Origin: Pirellulaceae bacterium
Lineage (GTDB): Bacteria; Planctomycetota; Planctomycetia; Pirellulales; Pirellulaceae
Direction: 5' to 3'
Length of the DNA stretch: 64,000 bases
NCBI GenBank assembly: GCA_022448315.1
Contig: JAKVCA010000017.1
Span: forward strand, 26,220 to 90,219
Position 1 is the first letter of the stretch. Every line of letters begins with the position of its first letter. The position numbers and the translations under genes are program-made. The notes below the pieces were generated by a model. That model was not told the DNA's origin and made no database searches. It saw only the letters and a program-made list of their open reading frames with translations. Positions 2,415 through 45,671 of this stretch are shown here, in pieces.

Positions 2415-4028
2415 CTAGTTGAAAAAACGAACCACTCGCCCGGTCAAAATGGACCATTGAACGGCGAAGAGGCAGGCTCCGACAACAAACATTGCAATGA
2501 CTAGAACAAGCGGTGAGACCGCTGAAGTTTGCGCCAGCAGAGATTTTCTTTCGAGTTTCTCTGGGGCCGAGTCGGCGACCTCCACTTTTTGGGGGGGCGC
2601 CAGGCCGGGCGTTGAAAAGGTTGGTGTCGTTCGAGTCTCTTCTTCCGTTATCGCCATTACGTTCGAGGATTCTGTCTGGTTCGCGGGATTCACTTCGGAA
2701 TTCGGTGTGAGCATCGAGGTAGTGAGGGCAAGTGACGGGAGTATGGCAATTCGCTCTACCGTGCTCAGGTTTGTTTGGGAGGATTTTTTGTCAGATTTAT
2801 CAGACTCTTTCGCAGATTTCTCCCCCGCGTTGATTGAGGACTGTTGATCTTCGTCTTCTTCATCTTCATCGTCGAGCACTGGGAAGAACGTGCTGGCCCG
2901 CCGAACTGCGTCGGGGTCAATTTTTTCCAGAGCCGTCAGGTGTTGTTTGGCTTCTGGAAGGGGGCAGGCTCGCAAATAGTTGATGACGGGTACTCGGACC
3001 CAGCTTGTTTTCTCATCGGCCGTTTTGAACAACTTCACAAGCTGCTCCATCACCGACCAGTCTTCCCACCGTGCGAGGTCCGGGATCACCAGGTCCGCGA
3101 GTTCGGGGCGATCCAGCATGTGGCCGAGACCTTGCACGATACGTTTTTGGGAGATTATATCCGCTTCGGTCCCGTGAAATCGGAGTGCGGCGATAGCAGC
3201 ATAAGTATCTGAGTAATCTGCCGCCTTATTCTTCAAAAACAAATCCTCGATCGTGCCCATGCCTGCGGGACCCGAAAGTGTTAGGTAGCAGGCGATCATC
3301 GCGTCGAGACCCGCTTTGCGGCGGCGATCCGTCGATTTCATCAGGTCTTCGAGCATGGGGAGGTCGGCCGTTGTTCCGCAAACACCAAGCATCGTGAAGT
3401 AAAGTCGTTTTCGACTCGCCGGAATATCTGGGTCGCCTAACCACTGCACCAGTTGATCGTGGTTCATTTTGTCTTTAAGCCCCCGAACATCATCGTACGG
3501 AGCTCTCGCAAATTCATCATAGGCATCGCGAGCGAGCATCTCTTCAGGATCTTCAAGGTGATTCTGGAAGAATTCGAGACGGGCGGCGCCGCCTTCTGGA
3601 AGGTCTCCCAGCTGTTCGAGGTAGAGGCGAGACCTCTTAGTCAGCCGAAGCGGTGTCGTCCAGTTGATGCTTGGTGGCCTTATCCCTTGGACTAGAAAAA
3701 GCACTTCTTTTCCCGCATCGCCAAAGTAAACCGTTTCGAAAGCGTCACCTTTGGAAACGAAGTCTTTACCTTTAAGGACGTCAATCACCGTAAATTCAGC
3801 CCGCACGATTTCACCTGGGTCAGGAATCTCACCAGGGGTTTCCGCGACTCGTGTCAACTTTGCGAATACGGCGACGTCCATAGTCCCCATTTCTTCGCTG
3901 AACGTCTGGGAGACCGCAGAACAGAAAGGACAAGTTGAGATGTTGCCATATGCGAGGGCAGACTCGGCCGCTGCAAACGCCGTTGCCACCAAAAATGCGA
4001 GATTTGTTCCAATTTGCCAGACATTCAT
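2415..4028 (-). CDS. Large secreted planctomycete protein with CPFC motif, helical repeats and C-terminal TM
   Basis: 537 residues from ATG 4028, chosen because GAGGA lies six bases upstream and a clean signal peptide follows (cleavage near ESALAYG). Just after cleavage comes TCPFCSAVSQTFSEEM, a motif I associate with a planctomycete family of secreted hypotheticals. Residues about 55-160 look like a beta-rich domain. Residues about 180-390 are alpha-helical and HEAT-like. An acidic low-complexity stretch (DDEDEEDEDQQ) and a Ser/Thr-rich linker lead to a C-terminal membrane helix around SPLVLVIAMFVVGACLFAV with a short RFF tail. It is thus likely a periplasmic protein anchored at its C-terminus. 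Function unknown. About 110 bases separate it from the DUF3299-like pair downstream, so one transcript is possible. Confidence 0.8.
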   Translation of the reverse strand: MNVWQIGTNLAFLVATAFAAAESALAYGNISTCPFCSAVSQTFSEEMGTMDVAVFAKLTRVAETPGEIPDPGEIVRAEFTVIDVLKGKDFVSKGDAFETVYFGDAGKEVLFLVQGIRPPSINWTTPLRLTKRSRLYLEQLGDLPEGGAARLEFFQNHLEDPEEMLARDAYDEFARAPYDDVRGLKDKMNHDQLVQWLGDPDIPASRKRLYFTMLGVCGTTADLPMLEDLMKSTDRRRKAGLDAMIACYLTLSGPAGMGTIEDLFLKNKAADYSDTYAAIAALRFHGTEADIISQKRIVQGLGHMLDRPELADLVIPDLARWEDWSVMEQLVKLFKTADEKTSWVRVPVINYLRACPLPEAKQHLTALEKIDPDAVRRASTFFPVLDDEDEEDEDQQSSINAGEKSAKESDKSDKKSSQTNLSTVERIAILPSLALTTSMLTPNSEVNPANQTESSNVMAITEEETRTTPTFSTPGLAPPQKVEVADSAPEKLERKSLLAQTSAVSPLVLVIAMFVVGACLFAVQWSILTGRVVRFFN

Positions 4029-4694
4029 GAGGATTCCTCGGCTATCCACAATCCGACACTACCCCACCCGCGCATACTCCGTTTGCCGCTCAAGCTGGGG
4101 AATTTCGCTTACAATTTGCCATACTTCTACTATCACGCACAAGGGGATTGATGTAAATGCAAGCGTTGCCAGATCGCCCTTCTTTCTGCCCGAACACAAC
4201 GAGTTCCGTTTTGTTGGGTGATTTCCGAGGCTTTTGACATCGGTCGGTGGGGCCTTTGATGGGCGTCAGACACCACTTCGATGTTTTGCGGGCAGGATTC
4301 GATTTCGTGTTACGGTTTGCGTCGCCGGCAGGGAGCCTTTGAGTTTTGCCGAACGATTCTTGGGCTTCGTCGTACGGAACCGACTCTTGCGGAGTACCTG
4401 GAAATCATGACTGGGTGTTGGTGCCGCCGCTTCTGGCTGGGATTTTCCAAATTGATCCCTTGGGAATGCCCCGCGTGGCACAGCTGCAAGAATGCTTGGT
4501 TTTCCTTAGTTCTTTATCTAAGATACGCCGTGGTTTAGCGAATCTTGATGATGGCTTTACCGCAGGTTTGGGAAAGTGCCTCCAGTGGCCCGCATCGCGC
4601 GAATTTAAGGTCAGAAGTTTCTTCATTGGCTGCAGGCAGACACCTTGAGTATCAGACGTGAATGCACGTCGTTTTCGTTAGGGAGACTAGATTG
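4029..4694. other. Gene-free region upstream of the ubiquitin-like cluster
   Basis: I find no supportable gene in 666 bases. Short frames on both strands overlap each other and lack family features. It must contain the divergent promoters for the CPFC protein (minus) and the Ub-like cluster (plus). A TTGACA hexamer is present near 4236, but no matching -10 follows at normal distance. The length is unusual for this gene-dense window. Confidence 0.4.
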
Positions 4695-5009
4695 ATGGCA
4701 GATGCAGGGGCACAGGACCGGCAAGGGACGCGGGTGACGTTTTTGGACCAAACGGGCGCTAAGTCCGTTGACGCCGTGATCGCGGACACAGTCACCGTAA
4801 AGCGTATTTTGCCCAACATCATCACCAAAATGAGCCTCCCGGTGATGGGACCGGACGGTCAGCCCATGAGTTACAGCCTCGACCACAAGGAGGGTGGGAA
4901 GCGATTGCGGGAAGACGAAACCTTGATCCAAGCCAATGTGACGGACGGTGATCATCTAATTGTCTACCCGGAAATTGTGGCCGGGCAGGGTAAATTTCAG
5001 TGTCATTAG
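4695..5009 (+). CDS. Ubiquitin-like beta-grasp protein (YukD/Prok-Ub-like)
   Basis: 104 residues from ATG 4695, preferred over an in-frame ATG at 4662 because GGGAG precedes it at about nine bases. The layout fits a beta-grasp fold: strand RVTFLD, strand DAVIADTVTVKRILPNII (strand then helix), a middle PVMGPDGQPMSYSLDH strand pair, GKRLREDETLIQANV (the 'L.D..TL' signature before the last strand), and final strand GDHLIVYPEIVAG. It is the presumed modifier of the pathway encoded downstream. It lacks a terminal diglycine: after AG (residues 96-97) a tail QGKFQCH remains, which a JAB protease could trim. An alternative is a non-conjugated YukD-type protein, but the E1/E2/JAB context argues for conjugation. 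First gene of the cluster. Confidence 0.75.
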   Translation: MADAGAQDRQGTRVTFLDQTGAKSVDAVIADTVTVKRILPNIITKMSLPVMGPDGQPMSYSLDHKEGGKRLREDETLIQANVTDGDHLIVYPEIVAGQGKFQCH

Positions 5010-5021
5010 GAGTTCATTCAC

Positions 5022-5696
5022 GTGGCTGGCAGTAGTATCTCACCTCGAGACCGACGTCTGAAAACCGATTTCGAGGCGATGCTTCGTCTGAAAGAGGAAA
5101 GCTCGATTCTTCGCTTCACGTCGCGTGGGACTCCACCGGATCAATACATCGTGACATTTCGTGGCCCTGGCACGTTCCGTCGTGAAGGTTCTCAAGAGGT
5201 CATGGTGGGTCGGGAGCACACCGTGTGGATCAATCTGACCGCCGCCTATCCGCGAATGATCCCCGAGCTTTCATGGCGGACTCCCATTTTTCACCCCAAT
5301 GTCAGTGGTAGTGGAGTGGTCTGTTTGGGGGCATACCAAACCAATTGGGTCCCCAGCCTCAAATTGGACGAACTCTGCATCATGCTGTGGGACATGATTC
5401 GGTTTCAGAACTACGATTCTGAAAGTCCGTATAATCGTGAAGCGGCAATGTGGGCACGAGACCACCAGCATCGATTTCCTCTGGATCAACGGCCGCTCCG
5501 GGACCTCCACGAGAGCACAAACGCTGGTCCTTCCACCGAACATTCGGAAAATGCCGATCGTGAGCCTTCCTCCAGTCGTCGAGAATCACTCGCAGGCTCG
5601 AAAATCGACTCTTCTGAAATGACGTTCCTTGATGTCGAAATCGTCGAAGCCGAAATTGATGATGACCCGCCAAGTGACATCATGTTCATCGAGTGA
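5022..5696 (+). CDS. E2 ubiquitin-conjugating-like enzyme with catalytic Cys101
   Basis: 224 residues from a GTG at 5022, with AGGAG overlapping the stop of the Ub-like gene, so coupled translation is likely. The UBC fold is clear: AAYPRMIPELSW (the E2 'YP..PP...F' strand), TPIFHPNV (HPN motif, residues 91-93), then GVVCLGAYQTNWVPS with the catalytic Cys101 followed by Trp and Pro as in eukaryotic E2s, then the helix LDELCIMLWDMI and the SPYNREAAMWARD motif that matches the E2 'NPxNxEAA'. The C-terminal 60 residues are acidic and Ser-rich and end in a hydrophobic DIMFIE. It should accept the Ub-like protein from the E1 at 6732 as a thioester. Confidence 0.9.
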   Translation: MAGSSISPRDRRLKTDFEAMLRLKEESSILRFTSRGTPPDQYIVTFRGPGTFRREGSQEVMVGREHTVWINLTAAYPRMIPELSWRTPIFHPNVSGSGVVCLGAYQTNWVPSLKLDELCIMLWDMIRFQNYDSESPYNREAAMWARDHQHRFPLDQRPLRDLHESTNAGPSTEHSENADREPSSSRRESLAGSKIDSSEMTFLDVEIVEAEIDDDPPSDIMFIE

Positions 5697-5709
5697 GCCC
5701 GGCTGGAAG

Positions 5710-5751
5710 CTGGCGGGCCAACCAAGTGTTCTGGCGGGCCAACCAAGTGTT
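5710..5751 (+). repeat. Perfect 21-bp tandem duplication downstream of the E2 gene
   Basis: The unit CTGGCGGGCCAACCAAGTGTT occurs twice head to tail (5710-5730 and 5731-5751), just after the E2 stop and before the JAB gene. It is a simple slippage-type duplication or a doubled binding site. Confidence 0.9.
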
Positions 5752-5967
5752 GTCTTGCGACCGGCTCTAACAGGAGTCGGTCTTTAATGGTTGCCGAGTT
5801 TGCGTTCGTTTGATGTACCGCCCCGATTTTTTCGAATCGCATTCAGATTGAAATAACCGAGGTGCACGGGGCCATGTGCTTTTCCGCAGCACAAATCGGT
5901 TCTGGGTCCGTGGGACTCGCGACGAGAAGTCAGCGAAACGCCTTCCAAACGAAGGGAAACTAGGACT

Positions 5968-6510
5968 GTGACCACTCCAATTGCAAAGCCGGCACCTATC
6001 CGTCGTGGAAACCGTCCCAGCCAAGTTGTGGGTCGTCTGCGACGTCACGGTTATCCTATTTTCTGTGCTGCAGATGTCTTGGATGAAATTGTTGACTATT
6101 CCGAAGAGAATCTACAACGTGAACGCGGAGGCTTTTTGCTTGGAGGACTCTACCTCGATCATCGTGTTTATGTAGAAATTCAGCATTTTGTACCGGCGCG
6201 ACTGACGATCGACCGTGCGGCTTCAATGACCTTCACACACAACACTTGGGCTGCCTTGTCCCGCGAAGCCCACGCGCGTTTTCCTGAGTCCATCCTTCTC
6301 GGTTGGCACCATACACATCCTGGATTCGGTATATTCCTGTCGGCTTACGATCGCTTCATACACACACATTTTTTCTCGCAACCTTGGCACGTCGCCATGG
6401 TCGTCGATCCCTGTCAAAAAGAGCTCGGTTTCTTTCAGTGGTCTGGCCAACAACTTCTGGATTGCGGTTTTGTCGTTGTCCCATCCGCTCCCTCGCAAAC
6501 AGACACTTGA
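5968..6510 (+). CDS. JAMM/JAB-domain isopeptidase (Prok-JAB)
   Basis: 180 residues from GTG 5968 (TAGGA just upstream). A single JAB1/MPN domain with the full zinc-protease signature: Glu52 in RERGGFLLGG, then HTHPGFGIFLSAYD giving His115, His117, Ser125 and Asp128 (ExnHxHx7Sx2D). Such enzymes cleave isopeptide bonds or process the C-terminus of Ub-like proteins. There is no signal peptide or membrane segment, so it is cytosolic. It would mature the Ub-like precursor (whose C-terminus needs trimming) or remove it from targets. A second, membrane-bound JAB protease lies at 7920. Confidence 0.92.
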   Translation: MTTPIAKPAPIRRGNRPSQVVGRLRRHGYPIFCAADVLDEIVDYSEENLQRERGGFLLGGLYLDHRVYVEIQHFVPARLTIDRAASMTFTHNTWAALSREAHARFPESILLGWHHTHPGFGIFLSAYDRFIHTHFFSQPWHVAMVVDPCQKELGFFQWSGQQLLDCGFVVVPSAPSQTDT

Positions 6511-6731
6511 TCGGTCGGAATTTTTCTGCTGGAGAATGGCGCGAACAGCGAAAGGACCCGAAGTCTGCTCTGGTTTTCCCAACAAAGTCGGATTCCTCAA
6601 AGTTTGATCTCTTCGACGTCAATGACAAGCGATTAGAATCGATTTGAGAAGCATGAAGGTGGCTCGCCTGCGAAAAGGGTGTCGCAGGACTTGCCCTTGG
6701 ATATATAAGATAATTTTAAGGCCTCTTTTCC

Positions 6732-7910
6732 ATGTCTGAACGGCCATTGGTCATAGATGATGATCGCTATTCCCGATTGCGTTTGATCGCGTGGTGGGAT
6801 CAGGAAAAATTAGCGCAAGCACGAGTGCTTGTCGTCGGTGCGGGAGCTCTGGGGAATGAAGTCCTGAAGAATCTTGCCTTGATGGGCCTGGGGCATATCT
6901 ACATTGTTGATTTTGACCAAATCGAGGAATCCAATCTGACCCGGTCGGTCCTGTTTCGTCGGAACGATTGTGGTCGTTCCAAAGCGGAAGCGGCTGCCTC
7001 TGCACTCAAAGATTTGAATCCTGATCTCGAGATTCTGGCTCTGCATGCTGATATTCTGACGGATCTAGGTCTTGGCATGGTGGCCGAAATGGATGTGGTC
7101 ATGGGGTGCTTGGACAATCGCGAGGCACGGCTTTGGCTCAACCGTATGTGCTGGAAAACCGGGACGCCGTGGATCGACGGTGGAATCCAGGAAATTAACG
7201 GCGTCGTCAAGGTGTTTGTGCCCCCTGACAGTGCATGCTACGAGTGCGGCATGACTGACAACGATTACCGTCTTATCAACCTCCGGTACAGTTGCCCGCT
7301 GCTGCGGCAGGAAGATATTCAGTCTGGGAAAGTGCCAACGGCGCCGACAATCTCATCGATTATTGCGGGGATGCAGACGCAAGAGGCATTGAAACTGATT
7401 CATGATATGCCTGTCGAAGCGGGCAAGATTATGGTGTTTAACGGCGTGACCAATCAGTTTTATAAAACCGAAATCCAACGCAAAGAAGACTGTTTGAGTC
7501 ATGAAACCTACACTCAAATTGCAGGAGCGGATCTTGCCAGTCGCGAGCACCGGGTTTCAGATCTTTTAAACTGGGCACAAGATTTCTACAAAGTGGGCGA
7601 ATGGTCTCTTGTCTTGGACCGCGACCTTATCACCGCCATGTCCTGTCACGAGTGCGGACGCCAGGTGGAGGTTCTTAAGACGCTTTCACGGGTCGGACAT
7701 CATCAGGCGATATGCGAAGGTTGTGGACAGGTCATGCAGGTTGAACGAGCTCATCGAATTGATGCCGAAAGTCGTTTGGTGGATTGCCGGCTGATCGAAG
7801 TGGGTGTACCTCTGTTTGACATCGTGCGTTTGCGTCGCGAAGGTGAAGAGCGATTTGTGCGGCTTGACCGTGACCGTGCAGAATCTCTGTCTGGTGTTTC
7901 GGCGACATAG
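6732..7910 (+). CDS. E1-like Ub-activating enzyme (ThiF/MoeB family) with C-terminal zinc cysteines
   Basis: 392 residues. The adenylating Rossmann domain is complete: VVGAGALGNEV (residues 35-45), VDFDQIEESNL with Asp60, Arg71, Lys84 and CLDN (126-129). Downstream are CYEC (169-172), RYSC with Cys188 as candidate thioester cysteine, and the helix TISSIIAGMQTQEALKLI typical of MoeB/ThiF. Unlike minimal ThiF proteins it carries about 130 extra residues with CHEC (305-308) and CEGC (328-331), plausibly a zinc ribbon for E2 or Ub-like binding. It should adenylate the Ub-like protein and hand it to the E2 at 5022. It ends nine bases before the next start. Confidence 0.92.
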   Translation: MSERPLVIDDDRYSRLRLIAWWDQEKLAQARVLVVGAGALGNEVLKNLALMGLGHIYIVDFDQIEESNLTRSVLFRRNDCGRSKAEAAASALKDLNPDLEILALHADILTDLGLGMVAEMDVVMGCLDNREARLWLNRMCWKTGTPWIDGGIQEINGVVKVFVPPDSACYECGMTDNDYRLINLRYSCPLLRQEDIQSGKVPTAPTISSIIAGMQTQEALKLIHDMPVEAGKIMVFNGVTNQFYKTEIQRKEDCLSHETYTQIAGADLASREHRVSDLLNWAQDFYKVGEWSLVLDRDLITAMSCHECGRQVEVLKTLSRVGHHQAICEGCGQVMQVERAHRIDAESRLVDCRLIEVGVPLFDIVRLRREGEERFVRLDRDRAESLSGVSAT

Positions 7911-7919
7911 GAGTTCCAC

Positions 7920-9332
7920 ATGGGCTCAGAAATTCAGTTTGGCGAAATTGAAAAATCGCGTCCGGAGAGGCAAACGCCTCCTGACAAGAATCGTCGATTT
8001 GCTGTGGTTGAGTGCCAGGAGCCCCAGTCCGGTGAACTGCGGATCTACGTTGATCTCGATGTAATGAAGGACATGGAGTCACATTCGGAGAGTGATACTA
8101 CGGTTGAATTGGGAGGGGTGCTACTGGGCCGACAGTTGGAGGACGAGCAGGGGCAGCCCTTTGTGGTGGTGAGCGACAGCCTCAGAGCGCAGCACTATGA
8201 GGCGACGAAAGGCAGCTTCAAGTTTACCCATGAAACCTGGCAGCAGATCTCCCGGCAGCGAGAGGATTTCCCCCCGGACTTGCAAATGGTGGGTTGGTAT
8301 CACACGCATCCCGATTGGGGCGTTTTTTTGTCGGGCATGGACCTTTTCATTTGTGAGAATTTCTTTAACAACGCCTTGGATCTCGCGCTCGTCATTGATC
8401 CTTGCCGCGGAGATCGAGGCTGGTTTCAATGGGTGGAAGATCGAGATCAGCCGAAGCGAACCGGTGGTTTTTATTTGACGTCTTCTCGCCATAGAGAGGA
8501 TGCATTGCGGCAATACGCACAATCCTTGAATGGAGCTTACAGTATGGGACATGATCCGCGACCCGCCGTTGTGGCAGGCCAGATTCAGCCAGCCCCGATG
8601 TACATGCCTCCCGCGCCGCCACGTTCGCCGTGGCTTGAGTTCGGAGTTTTTGGACTGGTTGGTGTCCAGTGTCTCATGCTGTGCTTTCTCGCTTGGCAGA
8701 GCTTCATGTTTGCAAGTCAGGCAAACGACGGTAGAGTCGAGCCCGCCAGTGACTTGGCACAACAGCAACCGGGGGATCGCCAACGCTTGTACGAGGCTGA
8801 AGCCTTGGTGGCGGTTCAGCGCCAGGTACTTCAGGATATGGTGGCAGCGGTCGGCGGTGATGTCGACCTTGCTGCCAAACTCGAGCAACTTGAATATGAA
8901 AACCGACGAAATCGATCGAGCCTTCAGGCGCAGGCTTTCATGAATCAGGAATTGCTGGATGAAAATCAAAGACTGAAGGTTTCGGAACAACGACTTGAAC
9001 TGGCGTTGGCTGAGCAAAAATCACTCCTAGACGCTTCTGTGAAAAATCTCGCAAGCGTGCAGCGACAGATCAAGGAGAGTGCCGAAACTGCGAGCGAAGC
9101 GAGGCTGGAGAGTCAGGTACTCCGGACCTGGTATCAAGGTGGTTTCTATTGGTTCGTGCTTTTTGGGGTCGGGGGCGTCGGCTTGCTGGCCGGTGCAGCA
9201 GCGATGGCTTACTTGCGTCGTGACGAATCGCAAAGTTTTCCGGAGGCCAGAGAGATGGGAGCCTCGGTTCATGGTGAAGAAGACGTCGTTTACTCTGCAG
9301 AGGACAGCGATGAATCGTCTCCATCAAACTGA
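7920..9332 (+). CDS. Membrane-bound JAMM/JAB protease with coiled-coil domain
   Basis: 470 residues from ATG 7920 (AGGAG seven bases upstream, overlapping the E1 stop region). Residues about 40-195 form a JAB domain with Glu63 (VELGGVLLG) and HTHPDWGVFLSGMD giving His128, His130, Ser138 and Asp141. A Pro-rich linker leads to a first membrane segment (about 240-266), then a long Gln/Glu/Leu-rich coiled coil (about 280-395), a second membrane segment (GFYWFVLFGVGGVGLLAGAAA, about 406-430) and an acidic tail. JAB and tail would sit in the cytoplasm with the coiled coil across the membrane. It looks like a receptor-type deconjugating enzyme that ties the pathway to the envelope. Confidence 0.9.
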   Translation: MGSEIQFGEIEKSRPERQTPPDKNRRFAVVECQEPQSGELRIYVDLDVMKDMESHSESDTTVELGGVLLGRQLEDEQGQPFVVVSDSLRAQHYEATKGSFKFTHETWQQISRQREDFPPDLQMVGWYHTHPDWGVFLSGMDLFICENFFNNALDLALVIDPCRGDRGWFQWVEDRDQPKRTGGFYLTSSRHREDALRQYAQSLNGAYSMGHDPRPAVVAGQIQPAPMYMPPAPPRSPWLEFGVFGLVGVQCLMLCFLAWQSFMFASQANDGRVEPASDLAQQQPGDRQRLYEAEALVAVQRQVLQDMVAAVGGDVDLAAKLEQLEYENRRNRSSLQAQAFMNQELLDENQRLKVSEQRLELALAEQKSLLDASVKNLASVQRQIKESAETASEARLESQVLRTWYQGGFYWFVLFGVGGVGLLAGAAAMAYLRRDESQSFPEAREMGASVHGEEDVVYSAEDSDESSPSN

Positions 9333-10029
9333 ACGTCTTGAGAATGAATGGGCCGTTCTCAAGTCCCTTGGTGAGCAAAGTACGATCTTCACGATCGATC
9401 CGCTTGGGGAACCACCGACCCTCTATCGATTGCAGTTTCAGGGCGCGGGTTACCAATGGGCAGATCGTGATTCTCGAGAGATTCAGATGAGCGATTCCCA
9501 TGAGGTTAAGATGGTTCTGACAGAGGCTTACCCTGATGAACCTCCTGAGCTGGAATGGTTGACGCCCTCCATTCATCCGTCATTGGAGCCGAGTGCCAAG
9601 ATGGGCTGGGCGGATCTTGATTTGGATTGGGACTCTCGGATGAACCTCGACCTTGTCTGCGAGAGAATCTGGGATGCGATTCGAGGCAACGCAAAAATCG
9701 ACATCTCTCAATGGGATGCCTTGATAGAAGCCTCGCCACATCGCCATGTATTAACCGCCCCTCCCGTTGATCTTCGCAGCCTCCGGAACCTCCTCTCCTC
9801 GGAGGGGTCAAACGTCGTGAAATACTGGAGAAAGGAGACACGCTCTTCTCGAGGACAGCCCCAGTCGTCCCCTGCCCCCTTGACGCTGATGGCAGCTGAA
9901 GAGAGCGACGGAGACGGGATTCATTTCGTTGAAAAAGATAAGACTAATGACGAGACTTCAGTGTCTCTCGAGGATTCCAAGGGACAGATCTGGTTTTTAG
10001 ACGAATCTCAGGCTGAATCGGGCGACTGA
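9310..10029 (+). CDS. E2-like (UEV-type) protein lacking the catalytic cysteine
   Basis: 239 residues from ATG 9310, which overlaps the end of the JAB-membrane gene by 23 bases. The N-terminal 135 residues follow the E2 fold and the first E2 of this cluster: TEAYPDEPPELEW (strand 3), TPSIHPS (HPN equivalent, 89-91) and the helix NLDLVCERIWDAI. In the active-site stretch GWADLDLDWDS, however, there is no Cys where E2 at 5022 has CLG. This resembles eukaryotic UEV proteins (Mms2/Tsg101), which partner an active E2 or bind the modifier. The C-terminal 100 residues are acidic and low complexity. Likely partner of the active E2; that role is inference. Confidence 0.8.
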   Translation: MNRLHQTERLENEWAVLKSLGEQSTIFTIDPLGEPPTLYRLQFQGAGYQWADRDSREIQMSDSHEVKMVLTEAYPDEPPELEWLTPSIHPSLEPSAKMGWADLDLDWDSRMNLDLVCERIWDAIRGNAKIDISQWDALIEASPHRHVLTAPPVDLRSLRNLLSSEGSNVVKYWRKETRSSRGQPQSSPAPLTLMAAEESDGDGIHFVEKDKTNDETSVSLEDSKGQIWFLDESQAESGD

Positions 10030-10067
10030 TCGAAAGCTGGCTTTGAAGTGGAAATGGAAAGTGGAAG

Positions 10068-10907
10068 ATGGAAGCTGCAATTTGTTCCATATTTGCGTTT
10101 GGAATCTTTGGCGGCTTTGGCTTTCTCATCTACCTGCTGATCCTCGTCGTCAAGCGTTCGGGACGGCTGAATCAGAGTTTTCGGGCCGCCGCCGTGACGA
10201 TGAAAGGGAACTTTGTACAGGGAGGGGTGTGGAAAAGGCCGAGAATTTCACTGCGATACGGAAACACGGCGGCACGTCTCCGGATACTAAAAAAGGCGGG
10301 AGGAGACGAAACAGAGCTGACAGTGAATTGGCCAGCAGGCAAACAGAGATTCGAGATGCACTCTCGAGTCGAAGGCATGACCTTTCGAAGGGCTGATTGG
10401 ACGCAAGTTGATTTTGGTCACGAATCTCTCGATACGGCTCTTGTTTTGAAAGCAGAGAATCCGCAAGGCTTTTCGCGACTGCTGAGCGACGGTGTCAAGT
10501 GGCAGTTGGAACGGTTGTTGACGTTTTTGCCTCACCAACGTTTTTACTGTGGGTGTTTGCGACGTGAACTCGTACTACGAAAAACAGGTCTGATAAAAAA
10601 CAACGCGGAGTTGGTTCAGTTTGTGCGATTTGGCTTGGAGCTTTACGATCAATTTCAATTGACTCAGGTGGAGGGAATTGATTTTGTTGAGAGTCAGGAA
10701 GCGACCCTGCTCGATCAGATCCATTGCCCGGTCTGTGGTGAACCTATTGAGAGTCGACTTGTCATTTGTGTGGACTGTAAGACGCCGCATCATCAGGAAT
10801 GTTGGGAGTACAACGGTCGCTGCGCCACGTTCGCTTGCGGCCAGGAGGTTTTTTCGAAACCCGCCGTTGCTCGCCCAATTGAGGATCCCCGAGGGAAAGG
10901 TTCCTGA
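10068..10907 (+). CDS. Membrane-anchored RING-type finger protein (candidate E3, Prok-RING)
   Basis: 279 residues: an N-terminal membrane helix (about 5-28), a soluble middle domain (about 40-205, no family recognised) and a C-terminal binuclear-type finger. The finger ligands are Cys220, Cys223, Cys234, Cys237, His241/His242, Cys245, Cys252 and Cys257 (CPVC, CVDC, HHQEC, then two Cys), matching the prokaryotic RING/treble-clef fingers described with bacterial E2 clusters. A RING next to E1, E2 and a Ub-like gene suggests an E3 that brings the E2 to membrane substrates. It could instead be a non-catalytic zinc scaffold. It is the last gene of the cluster; a convergent Nudix gene follows. Confidence 0.8.
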   Translation: MEAAICSIFAFGIFGGFGFLIYLLILVVKRSGRLNQSFRAAAVTMKGNFVQGGVWKRPRISLRYGNTAARLRILKKAGGDETELTVNWPAGKQRFEMHSRVEGMTFRRADWTQVDFGHESLDTALVLKAENPQGFSRLLSDGVKWQLERLLTFLPHQRFYCGCLRRELVLRKTGLIKNNAELVQFVRFGLELYDQFQLTQVEGIDFVESQEATLLDQIHCPVCGEPIESRLVICVDCKTPHHQECWEYNGRCATFACGQEVFSKPAVARPIEDPRGKGS

Positions 10908-39621: not shown

Positions 39622-42009
39622 CTAGGCAAGGCCAATCCAGCGTCTCCAGCCCCATTCCACGGTGAGGAGTGTCACGGCGATCAGCAGGATGGGCCACTGA
39701 TGCCAGAGCGGTTTCCTGTAGACATTTTTCTCGGGGAGTGTCTCAGTCCTGAGTCGGTCTTCAATAGAAGCGAGTTCCGTGGGAGGGATCAACGTTCCGT
39801 CATTTGCCTCCGCGAAGGTCTCCCACCGTCCTTTTTCCAAAACGAGTTCCCGGTATTCGTCGCCTGTAGGCTCCCAAGTCCAGCCCAAGGTTCGTTCTTC
39901 GATCAACTCCCCATTGCGGTCGGTGGCGGTACAGACAACCTCATAGAAGCCTTCTCCCTGAAGCGGTACCAGTGCCCGGTATTGTCCCTGGGTGAGTGTC
40001 CACTTGGCCGCCTCGGTCGTCTGAGTTCCGTCCGGGTAAGTCACTGAGAGTTCGACCGATGCGGAGTCGTCAGGAAGGTACTCGAGGTTCTGGACATTCA
40101 ATAGGATCTCTCGAGATGGAATGGGGTCTTGGACAAAACGAGATTCGGCAGAGAGGCGTGTTGGTAGATCGGCCACAAGCCAACGCAAGAGTTGTCGCCA
40201 TGACTGTCCGAAATCATCAGGCGGCGCGTCAGGCATCGGAGAGTTTTTCTTAAGGAGCGGGTTGTCTGCGGGCGTCTGCAACTTCCACCGAAAGAGATCC
40301 CCGATCATCAGTGCGGCCGCGCGACCTCGACCATAGGTATGCGTCGCAAGACCGGGGAGTTGTTCAAGTTCCGATGTGTTTAATGTACCGATTAGGAGTG
40401 CACCAGGTTTGACTCGGGGGACTCGATTGATGCTTTGGAAATCGGGCATCGACGCACGTGCGACCGTTTCTTCATCCTGCGTATCCCTCAAACGCGTCCA
40501 CGATTGAAGCCAGCCTTCCCGAGTCAGCCCAAGGCGAAACCCTGTCGAATCCGTGACCACCTCTGTCTGCGGATAAACGGGCAGAATGTCCGACAATGAA
40601 GAACGGTCGAAACCACCAAGATCGAAACCCTGAGGACCGCCGAGCATCAGCAGGCCACCCCCTCGGCGATCGACAAACAACTTGATGAGGTCAAGTTGGT
40701 TTTGAGTGAAGAACTTGGCGTCCACATCATCCAAGATGATCGCGCTGTAGGTGAACAGCTCTTCGGCGACTTTAGGAAATCCGTCCATCAATTCATCTTC
40801 GGTCTCGGTTCCCAGTCGGACCAACACAGGCTCGTCGTATTCCGCAGTCTCTTCGGGGGTGGTTGCATTGAATCCGTCAAATAATGGATTCCGCGAGCCC
40901 GTCGAGCGATCAAGAAAGGCAAAACGAGGTTCTTTCTCTGCGAGACGAAGTAAGCCAACGACGTTGATCTCTGGATCTTCCTGGGCAGCGCGACGGAGGA
41001 ATTTGAACTCCCAGTTGGGTCGGCCAGCGACGTACAGAATGCGAAACGGTCCGCCTTCTCTGGGCACCATAAGACGTTGGTGATTGTTTAGTAGCGTGGC
41101 CTCTTTCGTTGGAGATTGAGTTGTGATTTCGCCGCCAGCGATTTCATCCTCTAACCTTGCGATCACCCGATAACGATTCAAAAGTCCTGCAAAATTCGGG
41201 ACTTCCAAGGTGACTTCTGCCGTCGTTTTTGCCGGAAGCGTGGTCCGCTGTTGGACGAGTTCTGTCTCATTCTGATCCAGCAAGGCAACCACCACCGTTC
41301 GACCTCCGAGTCCGACGTGGCTTATTTTTGCGGTCACCAGAAGTGGAGTTGTTTCGAAATTGGTGGGGTTCGCGCGAACTTCTTCCAAAGATAGGTCCAA
41401 GGGGGAATGGTGATCGCCGAAGATGACTGGAAAGACCGGGATGTCAGAGGACGATGAATTCAGGGTATCTGAGGCTTCTGAGTCCGTGGCGAGGCCATCC
41501 GTGACCACAACGATACCGGCCACCGAACGATCCTTGAATCTCTCCGCAAGTTGCAGAGTCTGAGTGAAAAGAGGACTTCGGGTGTCGGTCCCCTGCCCCG
41601 CCTTTTCTCGATCAACCATTTTCAGTTGTTCGCCCAGTCCAAAGTACTGAACGTTGTAGCCGTCCTCGAGTTGGTTCAGCCAAGCTTGGTCTCCGGACAA
41701 TGCGGATTGAATGGCCTGCCGCCTGGGGGAAGATTTTTGTTCGTCGTTAAGATCCAGACTTCGACTCTGATCAACCGCCACAAGAAGCAGGTTTTCGCCC
41801 GGTTTAGGTTCGATGACCTGTTTCGTGGGATTGAGCAGGCATGCGAGGAGCAACGTGACCGCGAGTGCCTTGATTGAGGCCAAAGCATATCGCCGCCACC
41901 CCTCGGTCGTCGTCCAGATCACTGAAGCCAGAAGAGTCAAACTGAAAACGACACCGAGAACCACCGCCATCCCCGACCAATTCCATTCCCATTGTACTTC
42001 AGGTGTCAT
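39622..42009 (-). CDS. VWA / glutamine-amidotransferase-like membrane protein
   Basis: 795 residues. Two N-terminal membrane helices (about 13-33 and 42-60) precede a von Willebrand A domain with the MIDAS DQSRSLD and VVVTDGLATD. Further on are a class I amidotransferase-like fold (RILYVAGRPNWEFKFLRRA, then LIKLFVDRRGGGLLMLGGP) without a clear catalytic triad, a beta domain and a last membrane helix (WPILLIAVTLLTVEWGWRRW). This architecture is common in planctomycetes beside giant coiled-coil proteins and MoxR-type operons. The ATG overlaps the TGA of the upstream gene by four bases, so they are co-translated. Confidence 0.85.
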   Translation of the reverse strand: MTPEVQWEWNWSGMAVVLGVVFSLTLLASVIWTTTEGWRRYALASIKALAVTLLLACLLNPTKQVIEPKPGENLLLVAVDQSRSLDLNDEQKSSPRRQAIQSALSGDQAWLNQLEDGYNVQYFGLGEQLKMVDREKAGQGTDTRSPLFTQTLQLAERFKDRSVAGIVVVTDGLATDSEASDTLNSSSSDIPVFPVIFGDHHSPLDLSLEEVRANPTNFETTPLLVTAKISHVGLGGRTVVVALLDQNETELVQQRTTLPAKTTAEVTLEVPNFAGLLNRYRVIARLEDEIAGGEITTQSPTKEATLLNNHQRLMVPREGGPFRILYVAGRPNWEFKFLRRAAQEDPEINVVGLLRLAEKEPRFAFLDRSTGSRNPLFDGFNATTPEETAEYDEPVLVRLGTETEDELMDGFPKVAEELFTYSAIILDDVDAKFFTQNQLDLIKLFVDRRGGGLLMLGGPQGFDLGGFDRSSLSDILPVYPQTEVVTDSTGFRLGLTREGWLQSWTRLRDTQDEETVARASMPDFQSINRVPRVKPGALLIGTLNTSELEQLPGLATHTYGRGRAAALMIGDLFRWKLQTPADNPLLKKNSPMPDAPPDDFGQSWRQLLRWLVADLPTRLSAESRFVQDPIPSREILLNVQNLEYLPDDSASVELSVTYPDGTQTTEAAKWTLTQGQYRALVPLQGEGFYEVVCTATDRNGELIEERTLGWTWEPTGDEYRELVLEKGRWETFAEANDGTLIPPTELASIEDRLRTETLPEKNVYRKPLWHQWPILLIAVTLLTVEWGWRRWIGLA

Positions 42010-45000
42010 TTTTCACCGGCTCCCAGTCGTTGGAAATACTCTCGCACTTCTTCGGCAAACTCGGAAGGAACCGGATCTTTATCGAGTCGAATGGATTCGT
42101 CTGTTCCCTCAAGACGAATTCGCTCCGCTGAGATGCGTCTCGCAAGATTGCTGAGAGGTTTGACGATGAGCTCATCGATTTCCTCAGGGTCAGGATTTTT
42201 TGAGTGCCTTTGGAAGTCGCGCCGCAGGGCCTCAGCTCGCTGACGGATTCTCGTGGCCTCCTCTGCCAAAGGGCCCGCAGGGACCAGATTTTCCAATTCG
42301 CGAAATCGATCCATCCAACCACGATAACTGTCGGTGACTAACGGATTCCCTCCCGCAGCAGAATACTCGGACCATTGGTCCAGAAGAGACTCTGCGGACG
42401 ATGCGTTTGCGTCACCTCTCATTGGATCTCCACCGGGACTCGAGTTGGTCGGTGGGGTTCTCGAAGCTGACTCGCCCATGGGATTCTGTCCCTGCGGATT
42501 CTGTCCCTGAGATTTCTGTCCCTGAGATTCCTGTCCCTGAGATTCCTGTCCCTGAGATTCCTGTTGATTGGGGTTTTCGTTCGCGATTTCTTCCGGATCA
42601 CGTTCTTCCGGATCACGTTCTTCCGGATCGCGATCTCCGTTGTTGCCCTCTGGTTCCGATGGGGTATCTCGAGGATTGGCCTCTGCCGCCAATTCGCGCA
42701 CGGTCGCCTCCGCCACCCGGAGTCTTGAGAGATCGTCGATTCCTGCAAGCTGGCTGGATCGTTCGACCGCTTGTTGGAGCGTCTCTAACCTCTCCGAGAG
42801 TGCCTCTTCGATCGGTACTGATCGTTCTGGAAGACCATTCTCGATCCAACGTCGGGACTCGTCTGCAAGCAGATCCACTTGCTGCTGCTTGGCTTCTCGA
42901 AATGCTTCATACAATTCATCTGAAAGCAAGGGTTCAGAATCCTCGGAAGCTTCTACCATTTCACGGAGGTCTTCCAGAGCTTGATCGAGTTGCTCTTCCC
43001 GGTCTTGCATTTCATCCAACAAGGGTGTCGTACGATCTCTTTCTCGAAGGTCGCCTGACTCGTCATCAAAGAACGTCTGCAACTGCTCTTCAACATCCTG
43101 TTGGCTTTGGCTGAGTCTTTGCAGTTGTTCATTGAGTTGGCGAAGTCCTTCCTGAAATGACTCTCCTGTCCGTTGTTGAAAATCTTCCTTTAATTCATCG
43201 AGGGCCTGCTCGGCTCGACGTCCCTCGGCAAGCGCTTGTTCCACATTTTCTTCGGACAACGCTTGAGCCGTTTGCTGAGCAGATTCGCGTGCCTGTTCGA
43301 GTTGTTGACGATCTTCGCGATTTCCGTCTGGGTCGTTGGTCAGGTCTTCTTCGAGTTGCTCAGTATCCCTGAGCAGCTGCTCCTGTTCCTCCCGGAGCCT
43401 CTCAAGACGACGCTGTAATTCTTCTGCTTGATCTTCATCCTCTACGGCTTCGAGTGCTGCCTGAAGTTGCCGGATCTGTTCATTCAGATCCTCTTGTCGT
43501 TGGGCAAGGTCAGTCAGGCGATTGAGTCGGTCCCGCTCCTGCTGCTGTTGGGGTGAAGTCAGATCCTGAGCTTGCGACTCTTGTTCGTAGCGATTGCGAT
43601 CGTTGTCCAGTTGGAGTTGCTGCAATTGTTGCTGACGAGGAGAACCCGCTTGCCGATTGGAAGAGGGAGAGCTTTGCTGACCCTGCTGACCCTGTTGTTG
43701 TTGCACGTCGAATTCGTTACCGACCAATCGCGTCAATTCCTGCAGAATGACCTGTTGCGCTACCGTTGCGTCCTGCAGTGGTGCAGCCCGATTTTCTTTG
43801 GAGGCAGACAGGATTTGTTCCGTTGCAGTCAACATGGCCTGTTCAAGCTTTAAACGACGTTCCGGAGGGAGATCGGCTTCTGGAATCTCCTCAAGTTTCG
43901 GTCTGGCCTCTTCGATGATCGCCAATTGCTCGTCGAGGACCAGTTCCACATCGCTTTGCCAATTTTCAGAGTTGATTCCCCGTCTGAGAAGATTCCACGT
44001 TGCAAGCAGGATTTGTTTTTGTCGCTCGATCAGGTCTTGAGCCTCCTGCTCGTTCGGTTCTCCGGGGCTTTGTTCCGACTGCGGTGATGGCTGATTCGGA
44101 TTATCCGGTTGATCAGACTGGCGGAAAATCTGTTCAAAATCCCGCACTTCAGCGACCAGCAGATCGCCCAATGTGCGACGAATCTGATTGCCCTCGATCA
44201 AATCTTCGGCCCAAAGAAACATCTGCATGAGGTCGCCCGGTTGTGCGTCGAGGCTCTCCATGGCAATCTGCTCGCGGATTTCCGCTTCAAGGGTGCGAGG
44301 TGAGGCCTCCTCAGACGAGGACGCGGCTTTTCGAAGCATCCGTTCGATGGGAGGTTTTCCGGCGAGTTGAAAAGTCAAACCCAAATTAATGACCCCAAAG
44401 TCGTCGGTGGCCGTGCCGAGTACATCGACTTCTTCGATGGGACTTACTTGAGGGTCGAAGCCTGGAGCAAGCCAACGCACCTCTGATGGCTGGTTCGGCA
44501 GCGCGGTCAACTTCAAAGAGGTCGGACTGGCGGGCTGTCTGCCGGTGACCGATTCAAATCGAAGTTGCCATCGCTCTGACTCTCTCAATGGGACTGTCAT
44601 CTCGTACCGATTCTCTTCATCGGTTGGCTTCATGACGTATTCGCCCGAGGGCCCTTGCCAGATTGCAGACCTCAACGGCTGATTGAACTTCGCCGACATG
44701 CGAAGCTCCGTGCCCTCAACCGCTTGAAGCCGCCTGGGGTCCAGCAAAGCTTTGGTCGTTAACCCTGTGAATTCGGGATAATCCAACTTGATGCTGAGCT
44801 CTTGAAGTTCTGGGAGTTCATACACTGCCACTTGGAACGAGGGTGTCGAGTTTTCGGCAGTCTCAATTCGATACTGGAGATCTTGACGAACACTCGGGAT
44901 TTGCCCCGAGTAGATCGGGTCGGCGAGGCTCTGCTCCAATCGATACCGGCTGAAGTTTCCGTCAGCGTCTTCGGATACCAGATGGAGAGCTTCGGTGACC

Positions 45001-45671
45001 GCGACAGGGAGTTTCACCGTGACCAGGAGTGATTGGCCCTTCTCAATCTCCGTATTGCCTGGAATGACTTGCCATGATTCGGGAGAACTCTCCAAGGACG
45101 CGAGTGTCTTCGTTTCCGAATCTGCCTGTAGAGGTAAGGAGCCGAAAGGCGCACGGGAAATCGCGACCGAAACAACGACGATCAATCCGAATGAAATTAC
45201 AGAAGCTAATCGCGAAGCCAAAAGCGTCGGGCTCGAGACAATGTGTTTCCAGTTCTGAGGTTGGCACTTGGATAGTAATTCCCTTTCCAGTTCCCCGAGA
45301 AGAAAATGGCTTTTGGATTTCGTGTGTGCGGTTTGCGATTGCGTCAAGGCAAAGAGACGTGAGTCAATCTCTGGAAAATGACTTTCAATCACCTTCGCAA
45401 CCGCCATGTCTGTTTCGAAACGCTTGCTGCACCAGATACGAATCAACATGCTTGTTGCGGTAGCCAACGAGATGGAGGCGAGTAAGATCAATCCCAAACT
45501 CGTGGGGGAGAGTGGGAAGGAAAGCGAATCGGCAATGAGCCACATCACGTACGCTTGAAACGCCCAGACTGACGCCGTCCAAGTTGCGGCTGATCGAGAG
45601 CGGAGACGGCATCTCGCCCGATGCAGATTTTGGGCAAGCAGATTTGTGGTCGAATGGGTGTCTTCAGTCAT
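42006..45671 (-). CDS. Giant DUF4175-like coiled-coil membrane protein
   Basis: 1221 residues. N-terminal membrane helices (about 30-75 and 155-180) are followed by beta-sandwich-like domains (about 200-500), then a very long Gln/Glu/Arg-rich coiled coil (about 530-1000; QQQERDRLNRLTDLAQRQEDLNEQ and many LREE/LEEDL heptads). After that comes a region of short in-frame repeats, DPEER x3 and SQGQE/SQGQN x6, and a helical C-terminus. Planctomycete homologues lie next to VWA/BatA-like proteins, as here. It probably forms a large envelope assembly; the role is unknown. Confidence 0.85.
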   Translation of the reverse strand: MTEDTHSTTNLLAQNLHRARCRLRSRSAATWTASVWAFQAYVMWLIADSLSFPLSPTSLGLILLASISLATATSMLIRIWCSKRFETDMAVAKVIESHFPEIDSRLFALTQSQTAHTKSKSHFLLGELERELLSKCQPQNWKHIVSSPTLLASRLASVISFGLIVVVSVAISRAPFGSLPLQADSETKTLASLESSPESWQVIPGNTEIEKGQSLLVTVKLPVAVTEALHLVSEDADGNFSRYRLEQSLADPIYSGQIPSVRQDLQYRIETAENSTPSFQVAVYELPELQELSIKLDYPEFTGLTTKALLDPRRLQAVEGTELRMSAKFNQPLRSAIWQGPSGEYVMKPTDEENRYEMTVPLRESERWQLRFESVTGRQPASPTSLKLTALPNQPSEVRWLAPGFDPQVSPIEEVDVLGTATDDFGVINLGLTFQLAGKPPIERMLRKAASSSEEASPRTLEAEIREQIAMESLDAQPGDLMQMFLWAEDLIEGNQIRRTLGDLLVAEVRDFEQIFRQSDQPDNPNQPSPQSEQSPGEPNEQEAQDLIERQKQILLATWNLLRRGINSENWQSDVELVLDEQLAIIEEARPKLEEIPEADLPPERRLKLEQAMLTATEQILSASKENRAAPLQDATVAQQVILQELTRLVGNEFDVQQQQGQQGQQSSPSSNRQAGSPRQQQLQQLQLDNDRNRYEQESQAQDLTSPQQQQERDRLNRLTDLAQRQEDLNEQIRQLQAALEAVEDEDQAEELQRRLERLREEQEQLLRDTEQLEEDLTNDPDGNREDRQQLEQARESAQQTAQALSEENVEQALAEGRRAEQALDELKEDFQQRTGESFQEGLRQLNEQLQRLSQSQQDVEEQLQTFFDDESGDLRERDRTTPLLDEMQDREEQLDQALEDLREMVEASEDSEPLLSDELYEAFREAKQQQVDLLADESRRWIENGLPERSVPIEEALSERLETLQQAVERSSQLAGIDDLSRLRVAEATVRELAAEANPRDTPSEPEGNNGDRDPEERDPEERDPEEIANENPNQQESQGQESQGQESQGQKSQGQNPQGQNPMGESASRTPPTNSSPGGDPMRGDANASSAESLLDQWSEYSAAGGNPLVTDSYRGWMDRFRELENLVPAGPLAEEATRIRQRAEALRRDFQRHSKNPDPEEIDELIVKPLSNLARRISAERIRLEGTDESIRLDKDPVPSEFAEEVREYFQRLGAGEK
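42481..42565. repeat. 15-bp in-frame minisatellite (5.6 copies)
   Basis: The unit GATTCCTGTCCCTGA (with slight variants toward the left end) starts at 42481, 42496, 42511, 42526, 42541 and partially at 42556. On the minus strand it encodes the pentapeptide SQGQE/SQGQN in the giant coiled-coil protein. A unit multiple of three lets copy number change without frameshift. Confidence 0.95.
42588..42632. repeat. 15-bp in-frame minisatellite (3 copies)
   Basis: The unit TTCTTCCGGATCACG occurs at 42588, 42603 and 42618 (the last with one change). It encodes DPEER repeats in the same protein, only 22 bases from the other repeat array. Confidence 0.95.

Follow-up and report, generated by a model that had tools for sequence, protein, structure and literature searches.

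Can a planctomycete attach a ubiquitin-like protein (Ubl) to other proteins, and remove it again, with a gene set of its own? The question is raised by seven co-directional open reading frames (ORFs) on the plus strand at positions 4695-10907 of the window, the whole 64,000-nucleotide stretch of Pirellulaceae DNA analysed here. In order, they encode a Ubl, an E2 conjugating enzyme, the JAMM protease JAB1, an E1, a second JAMM protease (JAB2), an E2-like protein resembling the ubiquitin E2 variants (UEVs), and a RING protein. We consider it likely that the cluster encodes a functional pathway of Ubl conjugation, reversible and operating on the cytoplasmic membrane's inner face. The genes, their order, the conserved residues, the VAG end of the Ubl, the co-occurrence of a gene pair and the predicted folds were computed, for the following features (lengths in amino acids, aa):

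4695..5009, plus strand: Ubl, YukD-type beta-grasp protein, 104 aa (Pfam YukD, 7.7e-17)
4695-4985, plus strand: predicted mature form of the Ubl, residues 1-97, ending ...PEIVAG
4986-5006, plus strand: tail of the Ubl, QGKFQCH, 7 aa
5022..5696, plus strand: E2 conjugating enzyme, 224 aa, with HPN at residues 91-93 and catalytic Cys101 at 5322-5324 (UQ_con, 5.8e-14)
5676-5693, plus strand: C-terminal motif of the E2, DIMFIE, with a second copy, EMTFLD, at 5616-5633
5968..6510, plus strand: JAB1, soluble JAMM isopeptidase, 180 aa, an optional gene (JAB, 2.9e-6)
6732..7910, plus strand: E1 with a single adenylation domain (ThiF, 2.3e-61)
7293-7295, plus strand: candidate catalytic Cys188 of the E1, present in 73/75 aligned rows, the remaining two being gapped
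7506-7874, plus strand: C-terminal UFD-like domain of the E1, residues ~259-381, from the AlphaFold2 model and structure matches
7920..9332, plus strand: JAB2, a core gene, JAMM domain at residues ~41-145 (JAB, 3.3e-10)
9310..10029, plus strand: E2-like (UEV-like) protein without the Cys, with two copies of the tail motif (UQ_con, 2.9e-4, under the Pfam cut-off)
10068..10907, plus strand: RING protein (Prok-RING_1, 2.0e-11, above the Pfam cut-off)

The source genome (5.03 Mb, 97% complete, 126 contigs) holds a single copy of the cluster Ubl and a single Prok-RING_1 protein. An E2 profile run against 84,980 genomes returned 74 loci, making 75 clusters with the window, and all 74 belong to Planctomycetota except one metagenome-assembled genome labelled Abditibacteriales. 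The original prediction, made from the letters of the window, had proposed to look for the same gene order in other planctomycete genomes. This order recurs in dozens of them, which excludes a chance origin of the cluster; the seven genes are real. Every component named at that time is also confirmed by Pfam or profile matches and by conserved residues. What does not hold is the idea of seven genes inherited as one unit. Profile searches of the locus ORFs revealed two arrangements, Ubl-E2-JAB1-E1-JAB2-E2like-RING, as in the window, and Ubl-E2-E1-JAB2-RING. The five genes of the latter are a near-universal core, to which JAB1 and the E2-like gene are added as an optional pair. In Isosphaeraceae-type loci, for example the five-gene cluster of Singulisphaera acidiphila (L091), the RING gene is placed in front. 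The Ubl has by far the highest mean pairwise identity (78%, versus 28-59% for the other members), in keeping with a protein that interacts with many others.

The C-terminus of the Ubl is the first indication of conjugation. All aligned orthologues share the end DHLI(V/I)YPE(I/V)VAG. In 45/69 of them VAG is the exact C-terminus, and in the other 24, the window among them, 1-21 further residues follow. By sequence, the Ubl thus has an adenylatable C-terminus with a terminal Gly, and the extra residues, read in the same way, imply cleavage to this single Gly. A fixed terminal Gly and a dispensable tail fit a conjugated, protease-matured modifier. Furthermore, Lys 23, 45 and 65 are near-invariant across orthologues. 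Across the phylum there are also very divergent Ubls, whose clusters contain E1, E2, JAB and in many cases RING. Whether a tail follows or not, most of these Ubls have ...TAG or ...VAG as their end, the exceptions being those of L112 and L113. In another locus (L111, genome G147) an 845-aa open frame contains the Ubl match; this may be a fusion or just a long frame. An alternative start of the window Ubl is possible at an in-frame ATG upstream, at 4662. A search for solved structures matching the Ubl by sequence found none (best E 0.6). Lys69 was considered as a marker of the seven-gene form, as K occurs mostly in seven-gene and R mostly in five-gene clusters (20:5 versus 6:36); it was rejected because this pattern is not independent of phylogeny.

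Both enzymes expected to act on such a modifier keep their key residues. The catalytic Cys of the E2 is kept in 75/75 orthologues and HPN in 74-75/75, in agreement with the position proposed for Cys101. The AlphaFold2 model of the E1 (predicted local distance difference test, pLDDT, 91) superimposes on MoeB/ThiF across residues 8-258 (Z 31). Alignments with UFD-bearing eukaryotic E1s run through residue 381 (300 residues for SAE2, 317 for UBA1) and those with MoeB/ThiF cover ~230 residues only, in a comparison made with the whole model. Cys188 lies in a short loop, and the model has no large catalytic-cysteine domain. Judged by its family profile, the E1 is nearer to eukaryotic UBA7, UBA1, UBA3 and UBA2 (1e-47 to 1e-36) than to ThiF and MoeB (1e-32, 1e-31). 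It carries two near-invariant zinc sites, CxxC + CxxH and CxxC..CxxC, and the second of these places the extra zinc cysteines noticed earlier within the UFD-like end.

The JAB and RING proteins point to reversibility and to the membrane. Both JAB families keep the E, HxH, S, D motif of catalytic JAMM proteases: E52, H115, H117, S125 and D128 are intact in 29/29 JAB1 sequences, and the corresponding residues of JAB2 in 66-67/68. JAB2 has transmembrane helices at residues 241-259 and 412-430, either side of a coiled coil, and two such helices were found in 51/63 long orthologues. From this topology we infer a cytosolic JAMM domain and an extracytoplasmic coiled coil. The RING protein is anchored by an N-terminal helix (residues 10-28), so that both membrane anchors of the original prediction are found again. 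The helix is followed by a cytosolic TtfA/CCDC47-like domain (~31-204), a linker with a short motif, and the RING (C220-C257). The ligands C220, C223, C234, C237, H241, C245, C252 and C257 are kept in 53-54/57 sequences, and their C4HC3 order is the one given for prokaryotic RINGs in a review (PMC11354881). In the AlphaFold2 model (pLDDT 91.6, one membrane helix), the membrane-side domain matches mycobacterial TtfA (Z 15.6, 159 residues) and CCDC47 of the translocon of the endoplasmic reticulum (Z 10.4-11.8). Such a modelled fold proves no function, but suggests client recognition at the membrane. Ten seven-gene clusters (L036-L039, L042, L049, L057, L058, L064, L067) close with two or three tandem RING genes, each with its own membrane helix.

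A short acidic-hydrophobic motif connects three of the proteins. The pattern [DE][IV]x[FY][IL][DE] lies in the last 8 residues of the E2 in 70/75 orthologues, but in only 4/1,439 unrelated ORFs, and in 0.4% of tails after shuffling. Two copies occur in the tail of 18/26 E2-like orthologues (0.06% of shuffles), reading DGIHFVE and GQIWFLD in the window. A like motif, GIDFVE in the window, precedes the RING within the linker of 38/54 sequences (5.5% of shuffles). Divergent subfamilies are without it. It recalls SUMO-interaction motifs, and the three proteins probably use it to dock onto a partner that they share, perhaps the Ubl. The original prediction had been silent on this motif, as it was on the single-Gly C-terminus with its cleavable tail and on the UFD-like end of the E1.

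The optional pair has features of its own. Orthologue alignment favours ATG 9310 as the start of the E2-like gene, giving a 23-base overlap with JAB2. Its product is a paralogue of the E2 (E 3.1e-18 for the match within its own genome), and its family profile finds Ubc13/UBE2N in the PDB at 4e-11, two results that make the fold secure. No orthologue keeps the catalytic Cys (0/26, as opposed to 75/75 for the E2), while HP is kept in 26/26 and HPN in 23/26. An E2 fold minus the catalytic Cys is a mark of UEVs, and the earlier assignment as a UEV-like E2 therefore stands. In the 54 loci whose sequence extends 4.5 kb or more rightward of the E1, JAB1 and the E2-like gene are both present in 23 and both absent in 29, and each occurs alone once (Fisher p 5e-13). 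A tree of E1 and E2 requires at least 6 changes in JAB1 presence on supported branches. By co-occurrence the pair is a real unit, with limited phylogenetic power.

Burroughs, Iyer and Aravind are said to have proposed in 2011 that YukD-like Ubls serve as conjugated modifiers and that a UFD is present in some prokaryotic E1s. In the window, a YukD-like Ubl, a ThiF-type E1, an E2 with its Cys, JAB proteins and a Prok-RING are likewise united in one co-directional cluster. The cluster is not a new kind of system, because related operons from Actinobacteria, Planctomycetes and Acidobacteria are already covered in a 2014 review citing Burroughs et al. 2011 (PMC4197634), and tri-ligase Ubl operons are named in PMC7159879. 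As far as that review conveys them, the 2011 operons hold the same core functions in one operon and in the same phylum. With these operons known, and an archaeal one reconstituted in vitro, the layout cannot be called unprecedented. Apparently new are the paired UEV and JAB1 variant, the tail motif and the membrane domain, in a comparison with the 2011 operons made through the citing review only. The VAG rule, the tail motif, an empty chromosomal site and the TtfA/CCDC47-like domain are results of the present analysis.

The reconstituted operon, with Ub, E2, E1, srfp (RING) and Rpn11 genes, comes from Caldiarchaeum subterraneum (2017; PMC5654768). In the parts of that paper and of PMC6043591 used here, JAMM trimming of the tail, E1/E2 thioester chemistry and RING-stimulated ligation are shown. 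The likeness to the window includes a Ub precursor whose short C-terminal tail is cut off by a JAMM protease, a C-terminal Ub-like domain in the E1, an E2, a RING and a compact operon. In contrast, Caldiarchaeum CsUb ends in GG and the window Ubl in VAG, and the window has two JAMM proteases, one of them in the membrane. A UEV-like E2 and membrane anchors are not reported for Caldiarchaeum in the same parts of these papers.

We infer the catalytic steps, because of the conserved residues and the Caldiarchaeum system, and with them an E3 role, chain building and the substrates. A JAMM protease would trim the Ubl tail and expose ...VAG-COOH. The E1 would then adenylate the terminal Gly and load the Ubl onto Cys188, after which its UFD-like domain would present the E2, and the Ubl would pass to Cys101. 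The membrane RING may recruit substrates through its TtfA/CCDC47-like domain and prompt transfer of the Ubl to their lysines. Membrane-anchored JAB2 would take the Ubl off again. If this is true, Planctomycetota possess every stage of an E1-E2-E3-like cascade, complete with a Cys-less E2 partner and deconjugases dedicated to it. Most of its parts have eukaryotic matches, and its hosts are not related to the archaea from which eukaryotes arose. Tagging for a 20S proteasome is unlikely, since the source genome encodes only HslUV: its sole PF00227 match is HslV, beside HslU, and no 20S proteasome was found.

Several observations weigh against this pathway or parts of it. The namesake of the Pfam family, YukD of Bacillus subtilis, is not conjugated, according to PMC1779556. 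A tail on the Ubl shows no association with the presence of JAB1 (four cells 29/15/13/10, with hardly any independent pairs), and trimming is therefore not assignable to one particular protease. The window E2-like protein reads HPS, and so has lost the Asn of HPN too. In independent contrasts, JAB1 and the E2-like gene change together in ~4/5 cases and oppositely in 0, which with so few events gives p 0.125. Lastly, the structural likeness of the RING to E3 RINGs is weak (Z 4.5-5.5), a ZZ domain scores alike (4.6), and among PDB sequences the RING family profile fits the cellulose synthase zinc finger of plants best.

These last points bear on the alternative that conjugation runs through E1 and E2 alone, and that the RING protein, by virtue of a treble-clef zinc domain, serves at the membrane as adaptor or sensor and not as an E3. 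Its C4HC3 order and weak resemblance to E3 RINGs would fit such a role, as would its position as the least conserved protein of the cluster (28% mean identity), and one relative without an E2 match retains a RING homologue by the same housekeeping genes. However, the Prok-RING_1 match is above the cut-off, a RING is present in nearly every cluster, the very divergent ones included, and several clusters have duplicated it in tandem, a typical tendency of E3s. We regard the adaptor role as possible but doubtful. The E3 assignment is not supported in the form in which it was first written: given the ligand order and the Z scores it is a prediction only.

Within the proposed pathway, the UEV-like protein and soluble JAB1 of the seven-gene form would most simply build and cut Ubl chains, or direct a second class of conjugates. 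Eukaryotes offer a parallel in Ubc13-Mms2 (E2-UEV) and the K63-cutting JAMM proteases BRCC36 and AMSH, as here too an active E2 gains a Cys-less partner and an extra JAMM protease together. Unlike eukaryotic UEVs, most of the bacterial Cys-less E2s keep HPN, and chains and binding between E2 and E2-like protein are hypothetical here. It is a rather unlikely, if attractive, extension that the seven-gene form is a chain-building system, in which E2 and UEV-like partner make Ubl chains on membrane clients selected by a CCDC47/TtfA-like RING ligase, with JAB1 as the cutting enzyme and the tail motif binding the Ubl. Bacteria without a 20S proteasome would then have chains directed by a UEV, and a RING ligase would carry out quality control of their membrane proteins. 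The five-gene and seven-gene forms, together with the empty sites, are a natural experiment on the role of the UEV-like protein and on chain formation.

Could the cluster instead serve anti-phage defence, tagging phage or host proteins on infection in the manner of Bil, Bub or CBASS? The best-studied bacterial Ubl pathways are of this kind: Bil and CBASS are defence systems, and Bub a set of putative immune operons, 544 of which are known according to PMC13373217. Defence-linked operons also combine E1, E2, Ubl and a JAMM deconjugase, and the window E2 is patchily distributed, being present in 44 of 147 relatives. However, such operons are tied to defence genes and regulators, whereas the window cluster has a fixed housekeeping neighbourhood, a RING and a Cys-less E2. 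PADLOC gives only generic JAB and E1 matches. The E1 alone has a BilD match (1.2e-9), outscored by generic E1-E2 models (4.1e-22), and Ubl, E2 and E2-like protein are unmatched. A Cap2-type E1-E2 fusion, as in CBASS, was not found in any cluster, the two being separate genes throughout, and among the genes of the set we saw neither an effector nor a sensor nor a DNA-damage regulator. With their membrane anchors, RING and JAB2 suggest membrane substrates over phage defence.

Genomic location also speaks against defence islands, which are usually mobile. Downstream of the cluster in the window lie genes for a Nudix protein, cobalamin adenosyltransferase, P-II and GlnD, and these are its neighbours in many other loci as well. 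In four relatives without the cluster, the upstream genes (one of unknown family and a transglutaminase) directly abut the Nudix gene. Since this fixed chromosomal site recurs and is empty in these four, the cluster does not behave like a mobile defence island; it is better read as a block that was lost or gained repeatedly at a resident locus. A lone RING homologue in L140 (genome G021, without an E2 match; ~3775-4698, reversed) lies upstream of the genes for cobalamin adenosyltransferase, P-II and GlnD and adjoins an AAA-type ATP-binding ORF. It favours loss over gain. Taken together, a defence function appears unlikely. Least probable by far is that the Ubl is a sulfur carrier (ThiS/MoaD) or a YukD part of a type VII secretion system (T7SS), with E1, E2 and JAB serving something else: the Pfam name and the MoeB/ThiF-like E1 core (Z 31) would allow it, but an E2 with invariant Cys always adjoins the Ubl, there are two JAMM proteases, and neither T7SS (ESX/WXG100) genes by the Ubl nor cofactor genes are among the neighbours identified within ~10 kb, which are conjugation genes, a HEAT protein, Nudix, cobalamin adenosyltransferase, P-II and GlnD.

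Some clusters have additional neighbours. A transglutaminase-domain protein is encoded directly upstream in 16 loci within L036-L060, mostly with JAB1, and also in L139 and L142-L144. It is a neighbour and not part of the cluster, because relatives without the cluster have it too. In Isosphaeraceae-type loci, an M48 membrane peptidase of the CAAX-protease type follows the cluster at a median of 16 bases (L098, 13611-14912, and likewise L075, L079, L083, L091, L096, L102, L105 and L106).

Predicted sigma-70 promoters in the region are not above the level of shuffled sequence. Between the E2 and JAB1 genes, the window carries a perfect 21-base tandem duplication (5710-5751). Outside the cluster, the minus strand at 42006-45671 encodes a Q/E-rich ORF of 1,221 aa with coiled-coil-like stretches and 15-base repeats at 42482-42629, which accounts for the strong AT skew at these positions.

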